This document shows positions 6,565 to 51,280 of a stretch of 64,000 nt of DNA, piece after piece. Source of the stretch: Fusobacterium perfoetens. GTDB lineage: Bacteria > Fusobacteriota > Fusobacteriia > Fusobacteriales > Fusobacteriaceae. The translations under genes were made by a program, and so were the position numbers. Where the stretch lies: contig NZ_JADYTX010000003.1 in the NCBI RefSeq assembly GCF_021531475.1, forward strand, positions 1-64,000, given 5' to 3'. Positions within the stretch are counted from its first letter, which is position 1, and the number at the start of each line of letters is the position of its first letter. A model generated the notes under the pieces. It was not told where the DNA came from. It made no database searches and was given only the letters and a program-made list of their open reading frames with translations.

Positions 6565-6653
6565 GCCTGGATGGCGGAACAGGTAGACGCACAGGACTTA
6601 AAATCCTGTGGTATCTTGATACCGTGCCGGTTCGATTCCGGCTCTAGGCACCA
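6565..6653 (+). tRNA. tRNA-Leu (anticodon UAA), prophage attachment target
   Basis: Class II tRNA with encoded CCA. The acceptor GCCTGGA pairs with TCTAGGC. The anticodon loop CTTAAAA gives UAA. The prophage joins at its 3' terminus: the last 11 bases plus one more form the left attachment core. The tRNA remains complete after integration. Confidence 0.97.
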
Positions 6654-6717: not shown

Positions 6718-8121
6718 TTATTTTATAAATATTTTTATTTCTAATGGTTTTGTATTTATTAATTCTATGTGATGAATGAGTAATCTAAACATATATTTTA
6801 AATCTTCCATATCTCTCTCATCTTTATTTTTTAAAACTTCTTTTAAAATTTCTAAATTTTCTAGTTGTTCATCAGAACTTACTATTTCATCTTTTAAAGT
6901 TTTTTCTAAAATTCTTTTTTCAGATTTTATATTATTGATTTTTATTACTAATTCTTGCATTTCTTCGTCTAGTTCTTTTTCAGATATATGCCCTTTTCTA
7001 AACATATACCTTATTCTTTCTTGCTCTTTCTCATAACTATCTAAAAAAGTTTCAAGATTTTTTATTTTAACTTTGTAACTACTTTTGCTGACTTCTACAC
7101 TATTTAATTCTTTTAGTTCTGCCATTTCAAATAGTTCTTTTTCAATCTTAGGCTCTAATCTCATCTTGCTAATAGATTTTCCACAAACATTACATCTATA
7201 ATCAACTCTACCGTTTTCTTTTGTATGAGCATACATTTTACCACCACAAGGACATCTAACTATCCCAGTAAACATTAATGTTGATTTTCCTGCCGTCTTT
7301 TTTCTTCTAACTTCTATTGTAGAATTAGCTTGATTAAATGTTTCCTCATCTATTATAGGCTCGTGGCTACCTTTGAAATATTTGTAATCCTTATTAACTT
7401 TAATTTCTCCAGTATTAATATTATTTTCTTTTTTACCATATCTTAAATACCCAAGATAAAATTTATTCTGTAAAATCCATTTTATAGTTGATGGATTTTT
7501 ACCAAATAACTCTCCAGTTTCTTTTAAGCTCCTACAAGCTATATAATAATCAAATATAGCTCTCACTTCATTAGCTTTCGTTTCATCTATTAATATTATT
7601 TTATTATCCTCTTTATCTTTTTTATAACCTAGTGGGAGCTTTCCACCTTGCCATATTCCCTCTTTTGCTCTAGCCCATTTATTAGATTTTACCCTAACCG
7701 ATATTTGCTTTCTCTCGTACTCTCCAAGACTTGATTGTATCTGAAAGAATAACATTCCAGTAGGAGTATTTGTATTTAATTCAGGCTGTGAGATACTTAT
7801 AAAATGTATATCATTCTTTTGTAGCTCCAATACGAAATTCAACATCGTTAATGTAATTCTTGATATTCTCGAACTTTCCCACACAACTAAAATATCAAAC
7901 TCTCTATTTTTTATTTTTTCTTGGAGTTCTAAAAAACCTTTTCTGTCGTCGTTTCCTCCGCTCTCAACATCTTGTATTATATCAATTAAATCATACCCTT
8001 GAAGTTGACAGAAGTCCTGACATTTCTTTATTTGAAATTCCAAACTTCTGCCCTCCTCTTGTGTAATTGTTGATACTCTACAATATGCTATTGTTCTATT
8101 TTTCTTCGCTGACAATAACAT
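6718..8121 (-). CDS. int: large serine recombinase (prophage integrase)
   Basis: Site-specific integrase. The N-terminal resolvase domain (residues 8-150) begins TIAYCRVST, where the catalytic Ser lies in CRVST. The Recombinase domain is at about 170-270. A zinc ribbon (CPCGG ... CNVCGK) and a coiled coil near 350-420 follow, which is the canonical large-serine-recombinase order at 467 aa. The RBS AAAGGAGAG lies just before ATG 8121. It sits directly beside attL. Tyrosine rather than serine integrases usually use tRNA 3' ends, which makes this pairing notable. Confidence 0.93.
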   Translation of the reverse strand: MLLSAKKNRTIAYCRVSTITQEEGRSLEFQIKKCQDFCQLQGYDLIDIIQDVESGGNDDRKGFLELQEKIKNREFDILVVWESSRISRITLTMLNFVLELQKNDIHFISISQPELNTNTPTGMLFFQIQSSLGEYERKQISVRVKSNKWARAKEGIWQGGKLPLGYKKDKEDNKIILIDETKANEVRAIFDYYIACRSLKETGELFGKNPSTIKWILQNKFYLGYLRYGKKENNINTGEIKVNKDYKYFKGSHEPIIDEETFNQANSTIEVRRKKTAGKSTLMFTGIVRCPCGGKMYAHTKENGRVDYRCNVCGKSISKMRLEPKIEKELFEMAELKELNSVEVSKSSYKVKIKNLETFLDSYEKEQERIRYMFRKGHISEKELDEEMQELVIKINNIKSEKRILEKTLKDEIVSSDEQLENLEILKEVLKNKDERDMEDLKYMFRLLIHHIELINTKPLEIKIFIK

Positions 8122-13025: not shown

Positions 13026-13167
13026 TTAATGCAACTCCTTTGAAAATATCATCGCATTTTATTTGCTTTTTATCTAAAAAGTTAGCAAAAGCTAAAACTG
13101 TAATTTCAGCTTCTAAGTTAGCTTTTTTTATAAATCTTTTTACTGCTTCCGTCTCTTTAACTCCCAT
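13009..13167 (-). CDS. 52-aa hypothetical protein
   Basis: Begins MGVKETEAVKRFIKK. GAGGG lies 6 nt upstream. Overlaps the PAPS-reductase-like gene by 11 bp and the following small gene by 17 bp. Nothing recognised. Confidence 0.45.
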   Translation of the reverse strand: MGVKETEAVKRFIKKANLEAEITVLAFANFLDKKQIKCDDIFKGVALNVGDK

Positions 13168-13891
13168 TGTTTCCCTCGCCTTTAAAATAATTTTTTTGTT
13201 TATATTCTTTCTTAAATTTCTTTTCGAGTTCTTCTACTGAATAATCAGCCCTAAAGTTTCTTCTTGCTTTTCTATCCCATTCTTTTAAGATTTTCCAAAG
13301 ACGAGGAAAATCATCGTATAGAGTTCTTAAGGATTTTAAACTTTGTAAAGGGCAACACCAACAAGAAATTCTATCAAACTTTCTATATAATCCATTCCAG
13401 TCAAAACCTTTACTGTAACAATATCTAAGAGCCATTTCTTCTGTAATACCCCATTCAGCTAGAGGAAATCTTATATTTTTAAAATTTTTATTTTTCTCTA
13501 ACCTTTCAGGCTCATCTACTGCTATTCCTATGAACTGAACTACATCATTGCTGTACTTTTGTTTTAAATATCTTCTTAAAACATCTTGCTTAAAAACTCT
13601 TGTACACCACCTTGATAGAGGTCCTGCCCAATCATATCCTTTTTGACCTTTATTTTTACCTTTCTTTTTCTCGTACTGAAACATCATATATTCATATGAA
13701 TGTTCAGCTTTTAGAATTGTTATAGGTCTATTTATATAAGCTTGTACTCTTTTTATATGCTCATACATTTCAGGAAACTCAACAGTAGTATCACAAAATA
13801 TTATTTCATCTATCTGTATATTTTTTTCAATCATTAATAACAACATTGCTGTACTGTCTTTTTCCCCTGAAAAACTTACTATATTTTTCAT
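13157..13891 (-). CDS. phosphoadenosine-phosphosulfate-reductase-like PP-loop protein
   Basis: 244-aa PP-loop ATP pyrophosphatase family member. The nucleotide-binding loop is SFSGEKDST near residue 6 (family SGGKDS, here Glu for the second Gly). Downstream are SRWCTRVFKQ and the CWCCP cysteine cluster. Phages carry such proteins with unknown substrate; they are related to DndC of DNA phosphorothioation and to 3'-phosphoadenylyl-sulfate reductases. No dnd partners are visible here, so function is open. Confidence 0.8.
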   Translation of the reverse strand: MKNIVSFSGEKDSTAMLLLMIEKNIQIDEIIFCDTTVEFPEMYEHIKRVQAYINRPITILKAEHSYEYMMFQYEKKKGKNKGQKGYDWAGPLSRWCTRVFKQDVLRRYLKQKYSNDVVQFIGIAVDEPERLEKNKNFKNIRFPLAEWGITEEMALRYCYSKGFDWNGLYRKFDRISCWCCPLQSLKSLRTLYDDFPRLWKILKEWDRKARRNFRADYSVEELEKKFKKEYKQKNYFKGEGNNGS

Positions 13892-18738: not shown

Positions 18739-18826
18739 GGAGGGTTAAACCTAATGGCAAGGTAGCTGTTTGCTAAACAGTGAGTAGGCGTAAGCCGTGT
18801 GAGTTCAAATCTCATATCCTCCTCCA
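18739..18826 (+). tRNA. phage tRNA-Ser (anticodon GCU)
   Basis: Acceptor GGAGGGT pairs with ATCCTCC. The anticodon stem GCTGT/ACAGT encloses loop TTGCTAA, anticodon GCU. The long variable arm contains the GGC-GTAA-GCC hairpin, the T arm is GTGAG/CTCAT, and CCA is encoded (18824-18826). Complete class II tRNA. Confidence 0.88.
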
Positions 18827-18829
18827 TAT

Positions 18830-18902
18830 GTGAATGTAGCTCAATTAGGGAGAGCATATACCTCGGAAGTATAGGTTGTAAGTTCAAATCTTACCATTCA
18901 CT
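18830..18902 (+). tRNA. phage tRNA, anticodon read as CGG
   Basis: Acceptor GTGAATG pairs perfectly with CATTCAC. D arm GCTC/GAGC, anticodon stem TATAC/GTATA with loop CTCGGAA, T arm GTAAG/CTTAC with TTCAAAT loop. The anticodon CGG formally specifies Pro(CCG), but position 37 is A and the discriminator is T, unusual for tRNA-Pro, so amino-acid identity is uncertain. CCA is not encoded. It begins 3 bp after tRNA-Ser. Confidence 0.75.
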
Positions 18903-26050: not shown

Positions 26051-26863
26051 TTGATAGAAAGAAAATTAAGGGTTGATTATATTTCTGTAAATGACATCAA
26101 GGAATATGAAAATAATGCTAAAGAACACCCAGATTGGCAAGTTGAACAAATAGCTAATTCAATCAGAGCTTTTGGATTTAACGACCCTTTGGCACTAGAT
26201 GAGGACAACCAAATAATTGAAGGGCACGGAAGATATTTGGCAGCAAAAAGAATGGCTATGAAAAAAGTTCCTTGTATATACTTGAAAGGTTTATCAGAAG
26301 ATGAAAAAAGAGCATACATTATTACTCATAACAAATTAACGATGAACACTGGATTTGATTTAGAGGTGTTAGAGTATGAACTAAACTCTTTAAAAGTACA
26401 AAACTTTGATTTAGGTCTAACTGGTTTCACAAATTCAGAACTTGATGATTTATTGGAAAAAAGCAAACAAGAACTTGAAGATTTTGAAACAGAAGAAAAA
26501 GATAGACTTGATAACGATTATTCATTAAAAATAGAAGCTCCAATTTATGAGCCTAAAAATGAGAAACCTGAAATCTCTGAAATGGTTGATTATACCAAAT
26601 ACAATCAACTTATCGAGGAGATAGAAAATAGAAAAGATATATCAGAAGAAGAGAAAAAGTTTTTAAAGTTCGCAGCAACAAGGCACATTGTATTCAACTA
26701 TGAAAAAATAGCAGATTATTATGCTAACTCTGATAAAAATACACAAGAATTAATGGAAAATTCAGCACTTGTAATAATTGATTTTGAAAAAGCTATTGAG
26801 AATGGTTTTGTTCAAATGTCTAAAGAGACAATGCAAGAGTTTGGAGCTGATTGTGATGAGTAA
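26051..26863 (+). CDS. ParB/Srx-domain protein (DNA modification cassette)
   Basis: 270 aa, TTG start with GGAGGTG 7 nt upstream. The N-terminal ParB-like domain (residues 4-135) contains IIEGHGRYLAAKRMA and YIITHNKLTMN. The C-terminal domain (RHIVFNYEKIADYYA ... LVIIDFEKAIENGFV) is one often found beside phage ParB-methyltransferase genes. Its N-terminal half is clearly paralogous to the 27739 protein. Not a partition protein: no helix-turn-helix or ParA. Role in DNA-base modification is inferred from neighbours. Confidence 0.82.
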   Translation: MIERKLRVDYISVNDIKEYENNAKEHPDWQVEQIANSIRAFGFNDPLALDEDNQIIEGHGRYLAAKRMAMKKVPCIYLKGLSEDEKRAYIITHNKLTMNTGFDLEVLEYELNSLKVQNFDLGLTGFTNSELDDLLEKSKQELEDFETEEKDRLDNDYSLKIEAPIYEPKNEKPEISEMVDYTKYNQLIEEIENRKDISEEEKKFLKFAATRHIVFNYEKIADYYANSDKNTQELMENSALVIIDFEKAIENGFVQMSKETMQEFGADCDE

Positions 26864-27734
26864 TGAAATAGATTGGAAAAAAGAAAAGTTCGCTATTTTT
26901 ATTCTTACTCACGGAAGACCTGACAATGTAGTTACGTATGACACCGTTAGACGACACGGATATACTGGAGAGATATATTTACTCATCGACAATGAGGATA
27001 AGATGGCAGACAGCTATTATGACAAATATGGTGATGAAGTAATTATGTTTGACAAACTAGCTATATCTAAAACTTTTGACCAAGCAGATAATTTTGAAGA
27101 TAGAAGAGCTATTGTTTATGCAAGAAATGCTGTATTTGATGTAGCTGAAAAATTAGGCTTAGACTATTTTATGCAACTTGATGATGATTATACAAGTTTT
27201 TCTATAAGAATAGATGAAAATAAAAATTTCACACATAAAAGTGTTAAAAATTTAGATAGACATATAAAAAGTTTATTAGATTTTTATAAAAAGGTCCCTA
27301 ACTTAAAAGCAATATCTTTCGCACAAGGTGGAGATTTTATTGGTGGAGTTAGTTGTTCTTTATTAAAAAGTAATCTAGCTAAAAGAAAATGTATGAACTC
27401 TTTCTTATGTTCGGTCCACAGAAAATTTACTTTCAAAGGTAGAATTAATGAAGATGTTAATACATATACTCACGAAGCTAGTAAGGGTATGTTATTTTTT
27501 ACATTCCCATTTGTAATGCTTAATCAAAAGGTAACACAAACAAATAATGGTGGAATGACTGACATATACAAAGCTAATGGAACTTATATAAAAAGTTTCT
27601 ACTCGGTATTGTTCCAACCCTCATCTGTAAAAGTTTCACTAATAAATGGTCCTAGTCAATCAAGAATACATCACAAAATAAAATGGGTCAATACTATTCC
27701 TCATATTATAAGTGAGATTTATAAGAAAAGGTGA
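26856..27734 (+). CDS. TET-associated-type glycosyltransferase (GT-A)
   Basis: 292 aa from ATG 26856 (MSNEIDWKKEKF), overlapping the ParB gene by 8 bp; a frame open from 26778 is less likely. Family features: FAIFILTHGRPDNV at the N-terminus, YLLIDNEDK, and the metal-binding LDDDY near residue 120. This matches the TAGT family, predicted to glycosylate modified bases in phage DNA. No TET/JBP oxygenase or hydroxymethylase is seen in the window, so the acceptor is unknown. Confidence 0.75.
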   Translation: MSNEIDWKKEKFAIFILTHGRPDNVVTYDTVRRHGYTGEIYLLIDNEDKMADSYYDKYGDEVIMFDKLAISKTFDQADNFEDRRAIVYARNAVFDVAEKLGLDYFMQLDDDYTSFSIRIDENKNFTHKSVKNLDRHIKSLLDFYKKVPNLKAISFAQGGDFIGGVSCSLLKSNLAKRKCMNSFLCSVHRKFTFKGRINEDVNTYTHEASKGMLFFTFPFVMLNQKVTQTNNGGMTDIYKANGTYIKSFYSVLFQPSSVKVSLINGPSQSRIHHKIKWVNTIPHIISEIYKKR

Positions 27735-33775: not shown

Positions 33776-34570
33776 ATGCAAAATTTAAAAATTATATTTG
33801 GTACTAAATGCAATCTTAATTGTGATTATTGCTATCAAAAGCACGAGAATAACGAAATATCACAAGAAGTTTTAGATAAAATTATAGAAAAAATCAATAA
33901 GAATAACGAAAGTTATAACATTCATTTATTTGGTGGAGAGCCATTACTGTATTTAGAAAAGATTTTTTATTTACTAGATAGAATTGATATTAAAAAACAT
34001 AATTTCAGTATATCTACAAATGGAACTTTAATAAATGAGTTTGGGAAACTAGAAGAGAAATTAGGTTATCCTATACAAAATTTAATATCTAATAAAAGTA
34101 TTGGAAACTATGAAAAATTAAATAAAAATTCTCAATTTAGATTTATTTTAACTAAAAGCAATTTAGAGGAACTTGAAAGAAAATTAGATTGGTTTTTAGA
34201 ACAATATGGGAATGATTTTTCTATTTACTGTAATTTCTATGAGGAATGGTCGCAAGATTTATTAAATAGAATTGAAGTTATAGAGAGAAAAATACATCTA
34301 AATTATCCAAGAATAAGAGTTTTAAAACCTCTAATAACTAAAGGCACTCCTTGTAATTGTAGAAGCATTATAATTAATTGGAATGGAGATTATTTAAAAT
34401 GTCATAGAGACCCTAATAAGGTTATAGGAAATATATTTACTGATGAATTTATAGTTTCTAAAAATACTGAATGTATATTTAAAGATGATATTCAGAATAA
34501 TTTTATTAGAACTATGAGTAATACAGAAGAAATGGCTTGTTGTGATTATGACGCAGTGTTTTATTGTTAA
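33776..34570 (+). CDS. radical SAM/SPASM-type enzyme within the head operon
   Basis: 264 aa. Radical SAM CX3CX2C motif in TKCNLNCDYCYQ (residues 10-21), GGEPLL (SAM-binding GGE) near 52, and STNGT. The C-terminal CNCRSIIINWNGDYLKC fits the SPASM pattern CX9-15GX4C, with more Cys in CIFKDD and ACCDYDAVFYC for auxiliary Fe-S clusters. SPASM proteins usually modify peptides or proteins (sactisynthases, anSME) or alcohols. Located 1 bp after gpG with RBS AAAGGAAAG, so part of the late operon. The substrate is unknown. Confidence 0.88.
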   Translation: MQNLKIIFGTKCNLNCDYCYQKHENNEISQEVLDKIIEKINKNNESYNIHLFGGEPLLYLEKIFYLLDRIDIKKHNFSISTNGTLINEFGKLEEKLGYPIQNLISNKSIGNYEKLNKNSQFRFILTKSNLEELERKLDWFLEQYGNDFSIYCNFYEEWSQDLLNRIEVIERKIHLNYPRIRVLKPLITKGTPCNCRSIIINWNGDYLKCHRDPNKVIGNIFTDEFIVSKNTECIFKDDIQNNFIRTMSNTEEMACCDYDAVFYC

Positions 34571-38505: not shown

Positions 38506-39138
38506 ATGATTGAATTTTCAAATATTAACAATTATATAGATGAAAAATATTCTGTATTTATTAGGGCAAAAGATTATGATGTTAAAATACCAAATTTAAG
38601 AGATTGGCTTTTTATAACTTCTTTAGATTTTACTAAGCTAGACCGTAATTTCAGAGATAAAGTTAATTGTATTACAGATATAATGATACCTGACTTAAAT
38701 ATAAATGATTTAACAAATATGGAATTACTGGATATTGTATCAAAATGTTTTAATATTTTATCAAGAAAAAAAGAAGAAACTTCCAAAGATGAAGAACAAC
38801 AAGAAGAAAGTACAGATAGTGTATATATGAACTTTGACTATCTAATGGCTAAATATTGTAGGTATACAAATTCATCTCCAAAAGAAGCCTTAGAAACTAA
38901 TATATTTGTATTTCTTGGTGTCTTAAATGGAATTGATTCTTTAATAGCCGAAGAAACTCTAAGAATGGCAGAAATATTTGATAATCATTTGCATTTGAAG
39001 TCTAAAGACGGAAGTTTCAACTATAAAAAGACACTTGATAAATATAGAGATTCTTTTAAAAAAGGAGTTAATGTCGTTGCAGGGATAGATACTAACAAAT
39101 TAAATAGTTTAAAAGCGTTATTGGAGAGTGGTAAATGA
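38506..39138 (+). CDS. putative tail assembly chaperone
   Basis: 210 aa, acidic, directly before and overlapping (4 bp) the tape measure gene, where tail assembly chaperones are encoded. No obvious slippery site for the usual frameshifted extension. No sequence family recognised with confidence. Confidence 0.55.
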   Translation: MIEFSNINNYIDEKYSVFIRAKDYDVKIPNLRDWLFITSLDFTKLDRNFRDKVNCITDIMIPDLNINDLTNMELLDIVSKCFNILSRKKEETSKDEEQQEESTDSVYMNFDYLMAKYCRYTNSSPKEALETNIFVFLGVLNGIDSLIAEETLRMAEIFDNHLHLKSKDGSFNYKKTLDKYRDSFKKGVNVVAGIDTNKLNSLKALLESGK

Positions 39139-46628: not shown

Positions 46629-47777
46629 ATGGCAGATTATACACAAAATACAAAAGCGAATTTACCACATTTAAGTCAATCTTATTCATCACCTTTTGAT
46701 AGTCACCCTGTCTTTTCTCAAATCGGAGGGTGGGTATGTGATGAAAATACGGCTGATTTAAAATATAAACTAAATAAAACAGATTGGAGTAAAAAAGCAG
46801 ACGGAAGTCCATCTAATCTTGATGGAACAGACGGAGATGTTATGGTTAAAGTTCCTGCTTTCTTTATGAAAGTTACTAGAATGCCTAATGGAAAACCAAA
46901 ATTTGAAATTGACGACATAATTCCTGATGAATTTGGAAGCAATGGAAAGCCTGGATTCTTCGTTCACCCTGCGTTTAAAATGAGTAATGGGAAAGTAAGA
47001 CCATATTTTTTATGGGGAGCATATCCTGCATTTGAAAAAAGTGGAAAATTAAGAAGTATATCAGGTGTTCTTCCAACTACATCAAAAAACAAAGGAGATT
47101 TCAGAGATTTAGCTAGACAAGGTAGAAATACAGACTATGATATTTCTTCTGTATTTGAGAGAGTAGCTATACAAATATTATTTTACACTGAATTTGGTAC
47201 TTTAGATTCTCAAACAGCTTGTGGAAATGGGATAGTTAATATGACTTGGGAATCAGGAACAGGAGCAGAACAAAATCAAAGAATAACTGGAGGAAGTGAT
47301 GCTCTAGGAGATAGAAGTGGTTATTTAGAAAATGGAGCATACAAAAATGGTAAATGTTCCGTAAGATATAGAGGAATTGAAGATTTATGGGGGAATGTTT
47401 ATAACTTTTTAACTGGGATAATGGTTACTGATAAAGGGTGGCATTATACAAATGAACATTCTAAAATGGACACAATTTCTTCAATGACACTATATGCTAA
47501 AGATTTAAAAGAAAAAGTTCCTAATGGATATATTTCAGATATGGAATACCCAGTAGGTGCCGAATGGTTATTTTTACCTAAAACTACTGGAGGGTCAGCT
47601 ACTACTTATTTCTGCGACTACTATTATACACACGACCCAGGCGAAGAAAACGTACTGCTTGCCGGTGGTCATTGGGACAGTGGCTCTTTTGCAGGGCTTG
47701 CGTATTGGAATTGCCCTAATGTCGCTTCGACTTCGGGTGTGAGTCTCGGTGCTCGCTTGTCTTGGGCAAAGCAATAG
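46629..47777 (+). CDS. DGR target: C-type-lectin-fold tail adhesin with variable C-terminus
   Basis: 382 aa, presumed receptor-binding protein. The C-terminal half has FGE-sulfatase/C-lectin signatures (YRGIEDLWGNVYNFLTG, YPVGAEWLFLP, AYWNCPNVASTS). The VR covers residues 342-377 of 382. Twelve residues differ from the template: 345, 348, 350, 351, 354, 358, 363, 370, 372, 373, 375 and 376. N-terminal part carries WVCDENTADLKYKLNKTDW and FFMKVTRMPNGKPKF. RBS AGGAGG. The gene ends 73 bp before the TR. Confidence 0.9.
   Translation: MADYTQNTKANLPHLSQSYSSPFDSHPVFSQIGGWVCDENTADLKYKLNKTDWSKKADGSPSNLDGTDGDVMVKVPAFFMKVTRMPNGKPKFEIDDIIPDEFGSNGKPGFFVHPAFKMSNGKVRPYFLWGAYPAFEKSGKLRSISGVLPTTSKNKGDFRDLARQGRNTDYDISSVFERVAIQILFYTEFGTLDSQTACGNGIVNMTWESGTGAEQNQRITGGSDALGDRSGYLENGAYKNGKCSVRYRGIEDLWGNVYNFLTGIMVTDKGWHYTNEHSKMDTISSMTLYAKDLKEKVPNGYISDMEYPVGAEWLFLPKTTGGSATTYFCDYYYTHDPGEENVLLAGGHWDSGSFAGLAYWNCPNVASTSGVSLGARLSWAKQ
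47654..47758 (+). repeat. DGR variable repeat (VR)
   Basis: 105 bp aligned without gaps to the TR at an offset of 197. Sixteen mismatches, every one at a template A: ten A to G, four A to C, two A to T. Two are silent. Non-A positions (about 77) are all identical. Confidence 0.97.
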
Positions 47778-47806
47778 CACAAAAGCAGTAGCACAAGCAA
47801 AGCAAT
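47766..47806 (+). repeat. direct repeats just after VR
   Basis: GCAAAGCAAT at 47766-47775 and 47797-47806; TAGCACAA at 47775-47782 and 47789-47796. They follow the VR, where DGR homing signals lie, but are not the usual inverted repeat. Confidence 0.6.
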
Positions 47807-47850
47807 TTTTTAAATGAAATATAGGTTGAATTACTTATACCGAAAAAGAC

Positions 47851-47955
47851 ACTACTTACCGGTGGTAATTGGAACAATGGCTCTAATGCAGGACTTACGT
47901 ATTGGAATTGCAATAATGTCGCTTCGACTTCGAGTGTGAATATCGGTACTCACTT
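47851..47955 (+). repeat. DGR template repeat (TR)
   Basis: Non-coding donor copy of the VR, read as RNA and copied by the reverse transcriptase. In the VR frame it is rich in AAY codons, which gives maximum amino-acid range when A is mutated. It continues to a stop in that frame but has no start. The invariant GTCGCTTCGACTTCG block (47918-47932) is the most GC-rich part. Confidence 0.96.
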
Positions 47956-47995
47956 TATGTCTTAAAATTCAAATAAAAATTATAGTGATTTGACC

Positions 47996-48009
47996 TTGCC
48001 ACTTGGCAA
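47996..48009 (+). repeat. small hairpin between TR and RT
   Basis: TTGCC-ACTT-GGCAA, 41 bp after the TR core. It may be part of the TR RNA 3' structure needed for priming; that role is inferred. Confidence 0.45.
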
Positions 48010-48108
48010 AACATAAGAAAAACGTTGATAAATGTGTTAGTAGATATAATATCGAAAACTCGTTAATTTTTCCAAGACAAACTATATCAACAAGAAAAGA
48101 GGTTATCA

Positions 48109-49164
48109 ATGAAAAGAGTAGGTAATGTGTGGGATAAAATAATCTCATATGAAAATTTAATGAATGCTCATTTAAGAGCTAGTAAAGGCAAAGGGCATTA
48201 TAAAGAAGTTATAAGGGTTAATGAGAATCCTGAACATTTTATCAAGAATCTTAGATTTTTACTTGCTAATAAAATTTATTATATCAATTATAGTGATTAT
48301 AAAATGGAAACCATAGATGATAAAGGGAAACAAAGAGATATATATAAATTATCCTATTACCCTCATAGAATAGTGCAATGGGCAGTAGCTCTTCAAGTAG
48401 AGGATAGATTTTTAAAGAACTTAATACACGATACTTATTCCAGTATAAAAAACAAAGGTATAATTTTAGGTGTAAAAAGAATTAAAAAAGCCTTAAAAAA
48501 TGAAGAAGAAACTAGATATTGCCTAAAACTTGATATGAAGAAATATTATCCCTCAATAGATAATTATATCTTATTTGATATTATAGAAACACTAATAAAA
48601 GATAGGGAATTGTTAGAATTATTAAGAATGATAATATTTAGTTACGGAATTAAAGGGCAACCTATTGGCTCATTATTATCTCAATGGTTTGGAAATTTGT
48701 ATTTATCTAAATTGGACCATTACATAAAAGAGAATTTAAAAAGTAAATGGTATTTCAGATATTGTGATGATATTGTATTATTAGGAAGCTCCAAAGAAGA
48801 TTTAAGAAAAAAATTAAGATGTATAGAGATAGTAGCACAAGAAAAATTAAATCTAACTATCAAAGAGAATTTTCAGATTTTTCCTGTCAGGACTAGAGGA
48901 ATAGATTTTTTAGGATATCGTTTCTTTGGAGAATACACTTTATTAAGAAAAAAGATATTAAAGAAAATGAAAAAGAAATTAGTACCACTTCAAGATAAGA
49001 ATATTTTAACTAATTCAGATAATAGTGCTATATGCTCATATAAAGGTTGGTTAAAGTATTGTGATAGTTATAGGCTATGGGAAAAATATTTTACACCATT
49101 AAAAGATAAATATTATATATGTGAAAAAGGTTATAAAAGGAGAGTGAACATATGTTTAAAATAG
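48109..49164 (+). CDS. DGR reverse transcriptase
   Basis: 351-aa RNA-dependent DNA polymerase of the group II intron/retron-like DGR clade. Motif A CLKLDMKKYYPSID (Asp 142), the DGR-typical IGSLLSQ at 186-192, catalytic YCDD at 218-221, and LGYRFF in the thumb region. No maturase or endonuclease domain. RBS AAAAGAGG before ATG. The TR lies 150-260 bp upstream on the same strand, the usual DGR order. Confidence 0.96.
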   Translation: MKRVGNVWDKIISYENLMNAHLRASKGKGHYKEVIRVNENPEHFIKNLRFLLANKIYYINYSDYKMETIDDKGKQRDIYKLSYYPHRIVQWAVALQVEDRFLKNLIHDTYSSIKNKGIILGVKRIKKALKNEEETRYCLKLDMKKYYPSIDNYILFDIIETLIKDRELLELLRMIIFSYGIKGQPIGSLLSQWFGNLYLSKLDHYIKENLKSKWYFRYCDDIVLLGSSKEDLRKKLRCIEIVAQEKLNLTIKENFQIFPVRTRGIDFLGYRFFGEYTLLRKKILKKMKKKLVPLQDKNILTNSDNSAICSYKGWLKYCDSYRLWEKYFTPLKDKYYICEKGYKRRVNICLK

Positions 49165-49427
49165 ACAAAGAAAACAGAAAAATAATAATTACTGATGAAG
49201 TTTCAAGAAAAGTTATAGAAATTAGAGAGGGAGAAGCTTTAAATAGAAAGTTTTTAGAGGGAACACAAGACAAATATAAATGTATCTTAAAACTCATCGA
49301 AGTAGACATTGTAGACCCTAAGACTGGAGAAAAAACAGGAAATAAAGAAACAAAGGCATTCGCTCAAAGAGAAAATAACGAGGGTTGGTTAATGGAGTTT
49401 GTGGAAGAGGAATACAATTACGCATAA
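49152..49427 (+). CDS. hypothetical small phage protein
   Basis: 91 aa, overlapping the RT end by 13 bp. Beta-rich, acidic. No resemblance to Avd accessory proteins (which are basic helical bundles). Confidence 0.55.
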   Translation: MFKIDKENRKIIITDEVSRKVIEIREGEALNRKFLEGTQDKYKCILKLIEVDIVDPKTGEKTGNKETKAFAQRENNEGWLMEFVEEEYNYA

Positions 49428-49440
49428 GGAGATGTAAAAA

Positions 49441-49959
49441 TTGGAAAAAATTTTCAAGAATATTAAAGAAAATATATCTTATTTTACAAATGAAAATGAT
49501 TCTTGTGAAACTATAATAAATAAAATAGTTAAAAAATTAAAAGAAAACAATGTTACTTTAGAGGTTGGAGATTATGAAATTTTAGAGTTTGGAGAAAACT
49601 TCTCGAAAGTAAATTTTAAAATCAAAATACAAAACTTAGAGAATATCAAAGAAGAAAATATAGATTTGATATTACCAAATAATTCTTTTTATGATTGTTT
49701 GGTTAAAAGTTTTAAAAGAGTTACTGAATTGTATATCATAAAAACTTTTAAAATAGAAAAATCACCTAATACTGAAAAAGAGGGTATCACAGATAAGCAA
49801 AGAAGTTTTATAGAGGATAAAATGAAATATAATTCTCAGGTAATAGAGAAAGAACTTGATAAAATGCAGGTATCATCTATAAAAGAGCTTACAAAGGCTC
49901 AAGCTTCACAAATTATTACTTTTATTCAAGGTAATAAACATAGAAGTAAAGAATTTTAA
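49441..49959 (+). CDS. protein with recombination-protein-like C-terminus, next to DGR
   Basis: 172 aa, TTG start with AAGGAG. The C-terminal TDKQRSFIEDKMKYN ... SIKELTKAQASQIITFI pattern is that of the small C-terminal helical module seen on phage annealing and replication proteins. The N-terminal part is unassigned. Unusual position among tail/lysis genes, directly after the RT unit; a DGR helper role is speculative. Confidence 0.5.
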   Translation: MEKIFKNIKENISYFTNENDSCETIINKIVKKLKENNVTLEVGDYEILEFGENFSKVNFKIKIQNLENIKEENIDLILPNNSFYDCLVKSFKRVTELYIIKTFKIEKSPNTEKEGITDKQRSFIEDKMKYNSQVIEKELDKMQVSSIKELTKAQASQIITFIQGNKHRSKEF

Positions 49960-50013: not shown

Positions 50014-50421
50014 ATGAAAAAAAGCTATTTTACAGTAGAAGAAATCAGTCGTTCGGAAATGGCGAACAAGTCAAATATAAAGAATATTCCTAATAGATTA
50101 GAACTTCATAATATTGAAACTATAACTATTCCACAAATGAATATTATTAGAGAATTTTTAGGAGTTCCTATCATTGTGAATAGTGGTTATAGGTGTAAAG
50201 AATTAAATAGAAAAGTTGGAGGAGTTTATAACAGTAAGCACCTTGAAGGACTAGCTGTCGATGGAATACCAAAAGGTTTAAATCTTAGAGAATGTTGGAA
50301 TAAACTAAGAGATAGTAAATACGCAAGTCTTTTAGACCAGTGTATTCTTTATGAAAAAAGGGGATTTATACATTTTGGATTTACAGTAGGAATACCAAGA
50401 CAACAATTTTTTGAAAAATAA
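50014..50421 (+). CDS. M15-family peptidase endolysin
   Basis: 135 aa. Peptidase M15_3 motifs: NSGYRCKELNRKVGG, SKHLEGLAVD (zinc His and Asp) and IHFGF (second zinc His). Cleaves peptidoglycan cross-bridges for lysis. Single domain with no signal peptide or wall-binding module. RBS AAGGAGG. Confidence 0.85.
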   Translation: MKKSYFTVEEISRSEMANKSNIKNIPNRLELHNIETITIPQMNIIREFLGVPIIVNSGYRCKELNRKVGGVYNSKHLEGLAVDGIPKGLNLRECWNKLRDSKYASLLDQCILYEKRGFIHFGFTVGIPRQQFFEK

Positions 50422-51268: not shown

Positions 51269-51280
51269 TCTAGGCACCAC
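51269..51280. repeat. right attachment core (attR)
   Basis: TCTAGGCACCAC, exact copy of 6643-6654. It is a detached fragment of the tRNA-Leu 3' end; bases to its left do not form a tRNA. Confidence 0.82.

Follow-up and report, generated by a model that had tools for sequence, protein, structure and literature searches.

The window analysed here, a single stretch of 64,000 nt, contains a prophage that extends from about position 6643 to 51280 and is flanked by two copies of a 12-bp direct repeat (TCTAGGCACCAC), the right one at 51269-51280 and the left one located at the 3' end of a gene for tRNA-Leu (6565-6653). In addition to a recombinase, the prophage encodes a repressor, a replicative helicase, a terminase and a portal protein, and a cassette built around a reverse transcriptase (RT) is located between its tail genes and its endolysin (Table 1). 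Several further genes were encountered in the same prophage: a PAPS-reductase-like gene with SspD/DndC-type matches in the left arm (13157-13891, minus strand), possibly involved in DNA modification; tRNA genes for Ser(gct) and Pro(cgg) (18739-18902); a gene matching a phage beta-glucosyl-HMC glucosyltransferase (phrog_842; 26778-27734); and a radical SAM gene within the head operon (33776-34570).

Table 1. Features of the cassette and of its prophage surroundings (positions in the window)
Feature	Position	Strand	Description
Serine recombinase	6718-8121		Part of the prophage
Tape measure gene	at 39135		Tail/lysis surroundings of the cassette
Target gene	46629-47777	+	382 aa; phrog_5302 tail protein (E 5.7e-70); C-terminal variable region
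Variable repeat (VR)	47654-47758	+	105 nt; C-terminal in the phrog_5302 target
Template repeat (TR)	47851-47955	+	105 nt; offset to VR 197
IMH*-like TGTCTTA	47958-47964	+	Just 3' of TR; predicted pairing with 48074-48079
TR-RT spacer RNA	47992-48084	+	Rfam RF03020 (RT-17), 46.2 bits (gathering score 40.4)
Helix P2	47996-48009	+	Hairpin TTGCC-ACTT-GGCAA, 5 bp
Helix P3	48031-48064	+	7-bp stem, 48031-48037/48058-48064, around TAGTAG...CGAA
Helix P1, 3' strand	48074-48079	+	AAGACA; predicted partner of the TR-end sequence
DGR reverse transcriptase (RT)	48109-49164	+	351 aa; phrog_1423 (E 3.9e-97)
ORF91	49152-49427	+	91 aa; overlaps the RT stop; conserved companion gene
ORF172	49441-49959	+	172 aa; TTG start; conserved companion gene, 3' of ORF91
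M15-type endolysin	at 50014		Tail/lysis surroundings of the cassette

The four core parts are contiguous in the window, in the order target-VR-TR-RT. A previous sequence-only reading had described them as a complete diversity-generating retroelement (DGR) in a prophage tail operon, and both the usual order of the parts, with their coordinates and open reading frames, and the tail setting are borne out, with the tape measure gene upstream, the endolysin downstream and a phrog_5302 protein as target. That reading had overlooked the absence of Avd, the Rfam family to which the spacer RNA belongs and the two RT-linked genes downstream.

All 16 mismatches in the VR/TR core face an adenine of the TR, against a DGR criterion of at least 75% of TR/VR mismatches; with 28 adenines among the 105 TR bases, the chance of such an outcome is 1e-11. 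The VR bases opposite the changed adenines include G, C and T. Of the TR codons, 19 contain an A, but changes at A turn none of them into a stop, and about 10^14 protein variants are permitted by the TR. No further copy of either repeat was found in the whole genome, where a second VR was specifically sought. DGRs are recognised by a VR within a coding gene, usually one with a C-type lectin fold, by IMH and IMH* elements and by a stem-loop following the VR. In the window, a GTCTT block is common to the ends of the two repeats with an offset of 3 nt (a TAT insertion is absent in the VR), and the post-VR stem-loop is weak (z -1.2), while being clear in two related cassettes described below (G006 and G035). 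The target protein yielded no match in Pfam, its VR region matched the PDB profile of 5vf4 weakly (E 5e-5), and its AlphaFold model (pLDDT 40) is too poor to read a fold from.

The RT gene is intact, with the motifs IGSLLSQ (IGxxxSQ) and RYCDD, and is under purifying selection (dN about 0.25, dS 1.8-2.9). Its best sequence match in the PDB is 8ub7 (E 1e-37; next RTs 6e-12), which we take to be bRT, the DGR RT of BPP-1. A tree that placed the window RT among RTs of the order and of other origin united the DGR RTs in a single group (support 98/96 against non-DGR RTs), and the DGR-type RT proposed from the sequence alone falls inside the DGR clade. A group II intron, retron or DRT identity was rejected on the tree, the PDB matches and the low scores against TIGR04416 (71 bits, cutoff 300) and retron St85 (52 bits, cutoff 235). 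The same genome holds a second RT (G000:C29:28336-28947), a Drt2 defence RT (PADLOC E 4e-122) that is no DGR.

Among 96 genomes of the order examined, the cassette recurs in three others (G006, G035:C2 and G012), whose RTs are 66%, 67% and 56% identical to that of the window, respectively. Together these four RTs nest in a supported group (99/99) without recognised Avd, the other members being crAss-like phages, Psychrobacillus phage Perkons, Lactobacillus phage LBR48, an archaeal-virus contig and IMG/VR contigs. An Avd gene is found in about three quarters of DGRs (PMC7290462). A bAvd search (PF22296) returned no match anywhere in the window genome, G006 or G012; bAvd is present beside more distant DGRs of the same order (G035:C1 and G049:C9). 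A lineage with the target-TR-RT order and without avd, which includes crAssphage LMMB, has been defined as lineage 3 (PMC7290462), and the window cassette fits as a member of this known Avd-less phage lineage (Wu et al.), a placement made through the 99/99 clade with crAss-like phages and the published assignment of crAssphage LMMB. It resembles the phage DGRs of that lineage in the target-VR-TR-RT order, the lack of avd, the tail target, the single 99/99 RT clade and the structure of the spacer RNA; its RT is 40-45% identical to those of crAss-like phages and Perkons. It differs from them in the apparent host group (Fusobacteriales), the sequence of the VR/TR pair and the two companion genes. 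In the BPP-1 DGR, the TR likewise lies between target and RT, mutagenesis is A-specific, the RT is homologous (8ub7) and the spacer is structured; BPP-1 differs in carrying Avd, in having a spacer of a different Rfam family and in an RT that lies well apart from that of the window in the tree. The Avd-containing DGRs of the order share the A-specific TR/VR pattern, whereas they have bAvd between VR and TR and an RT-14-type spacer (below the gathering score in G049:C9), and their RTs are only about 33% identical to that of the window.

The interval between TR and RT is itself distinctive. The RT-17 family is found in the order in exactly the four spacers of these cassettes and nowhere else in the 96 genomes; it also scores above its gathering threshold in the spacers of L006, L012, L016, L078 and L084, and RT-18 (RF03021) does so in those of LBR48 and L018. 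The BPP-1 spacer matches the Rfam family Phage_DGR (RF03022), and the position of RT-17 in the window cassette is therefore equivalent. The Rfam RT-17 and RT-18 entries, as returned, give names only, whereas here these RNAs are placed as the TR-RT spacer of DGRs; compared with the RT-17 model, the P3 stem of the window (7 bp) is longer. Over 16 distinct phage spacers, pairing in P2 and P3 reaches 90%, and double-sided changes number 40 where 13.4 would be expected; it falls to 41.7-47.4% on a one-base slide. Conserved anchors were used to place the alignment register manually, a choice that somewhat favours the structure. The fold of the spacer RNA into P2 and P3 is supported by strong covariation across the 16 phages. 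The predicted helix P1, between the 3' end of the TR and the 3' end of the spacer, is less well supported than P2 and P3: an ungapped-helix test over 18 spacers, not all of them independent, reached p = 1e-5 when combined by Fisher's method, and a duplex-energy test on the same spacers a mean z of only -0.74. In BPP-1, an adenine within the spacer serves as primer for synthesis that runs into the end of the TR (PMC12875486); P1 would bring together the same ends. Elsewhere, the spacers of three other DGRs (L046, L047 and L009) match Rfam RT-14, that of L047 below the gathering score, and RT-14 likewise seems to be a spacer RNA of DGRs.

ORF91 and ORF172 lie directly after the RT in all four genomes that have an RT of this clade; the 92 others lack them, the sole borderline match being to ORF172 in G033 (E 7.6e-4). 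Purifying selection acts on ORF91 (dN 0.3, dS 1.7 or saturated). Neither protein has a significant match in Pfam, PHROGs, NCBIfam, the PDB, the phage collection or the viral contigs. Apart from this, the prophages carrying them have almost nothing in common with that of the window, although part of the upstream tail gene ORF384 is shared as well.

Two explanations of this linkage were weighed. According to the first, which we consider about evenly balanced between true and false, ORF91 and ORF172 belong to the tail-tip or lysis module, for instance as chaperones or assembly proteins, and are carried along with the target. Their position between tail fibre and endolysin agrees with this, as does the finding that in other members of the lineage the RT is followed by unrelated short ORFs; however, the two genes persist where the target is strongly different, as in G006, where the target is an 864-aa fusion of 37% identity and ORF91 retains 64%. 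According to the second, which is possible but rather doubtful, they are accessory factors of the DGR that replace Avd or aid cDNA integration in this clade. The co-occurrence with the RT in otherwise nearly unrelated prophages points in this direction, and so does the absence of bAvd from the window genome, G006 and G012. ORF91 is 64%, 60% and 42% identical to the window protein in G006, G035 and G012, and the target 37%, 68% and 45%, so that the divergence of ORF91 parallels that of the RT rather than that of the target. A low-confidence AlphaFold model of ORF172 (pLDDT 60), too weak to serve as evidence, has several weak Foldseek matches to ERF recombination proteins (best E 1.3e-3, not significant). 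Against an accessory role, the association comprises only four genomes, and Avd-less relatives outside the order with the same type of RT (Perkons, LBR48, crAss-like phages, V5 and V7) are without both genes, which are therefore not generally required by this RT; moreover, the sharing of part of ORF384 means that the whole receptor-binding module may be what moves. An extended form of the accessory reading, in which the RT of this clade partners with ORF91 and ORF172 instead of Avd and constitutes with the RT-17 RNA a cassette mobile between unrelated phages, ORF172 perhaps being a small ERF-like single-strand annealing protein, is speculative and on balance improbable.

Comparison of the repeats between genomes bears on whether the element works. 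The three related cassettes have 14-15 VR/TR core mismatches each, of which 0-1 are non-A, and the TRs of different genomes differ from one another at 14-20 non-A positions. Each VR agrees with its own TR at non-A sites even though the TRs have diverged, which implies that copying from TR to VR has continued since the lineages split. The A-specific TR/VR pattern also occurs in Perkons, crAss-like phages, archaeal-virus contigs and IMG/VR contigs. No near-identical copy of the window phage was found, and a single VR state is visible. The sequence-only reading had suggested looking for A-position variation confined to the VR, and in a relative the differences are concentrated there: between two near-identical IMG/VR contigs (L013 and L014), whose target is homologous, 13 of 116 VR sites differ, 12 of them opposite TR adenines, compared with 12 of 2924 sites outside the VR (Fisher p 7e-13), and the TRs are identical. 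Another DGR of the order (G049:C37, 3682-4523 and 5146-5276) combines two tandem copies of a VR-bearing target with one TR, and both copies are A-specific. It is very unlikely that the window element is a relic, structurally complete yet inactive now, with a VR fixed long ago: the single visible VR state and the weak post-VR stem-loop would suit such a history, but the RT and spacer are intact and conserved, and the VR/TR core differences all lie at A despite the non-A divergence of TRs between genomes.

We are therefore highly confident that the element is a complete, Avd-less, phage-borne DGR of the target-VR-TR-RT type in a prophage tail region. The four core parts, the A-only differences between TR and VR, the intact RT under selection, the agreement of each VR with its own TR and the structured spacer are all seen in the sequence; the DGR is real and probably functional. 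By analogy with BPP-1, the RT would bind the RNA of TR and spacer, and cDNA synthesis would start inside the spacer and run into the 3' end of the TR, with adenines copied at random; the cDNA would then take the place of the VR. Each lysogen might in this way give rise to phages with varied tail-protein tips, some possibly using other receptors, as the initial reading had proposed. ORF91 and ORF172, travelling with the cassette, may assist either the RT or the tail protein.

What is distinctive here is the RT-17 spacer RNA together with ORF91 and ORF172, the DGR core being otherwise ordinary. That core adds one example, and the literature searched held no published DGR from the bacterial group to which it apparently belongs. 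For RT-17 and RT-18, the analysis suggests a role, as the spacer between TR and RT in phage DGRs of the Avd-less kind, with helices supported by covariation, and ORF91 and ORF172 become two candidate partners of DGRs without Avd.
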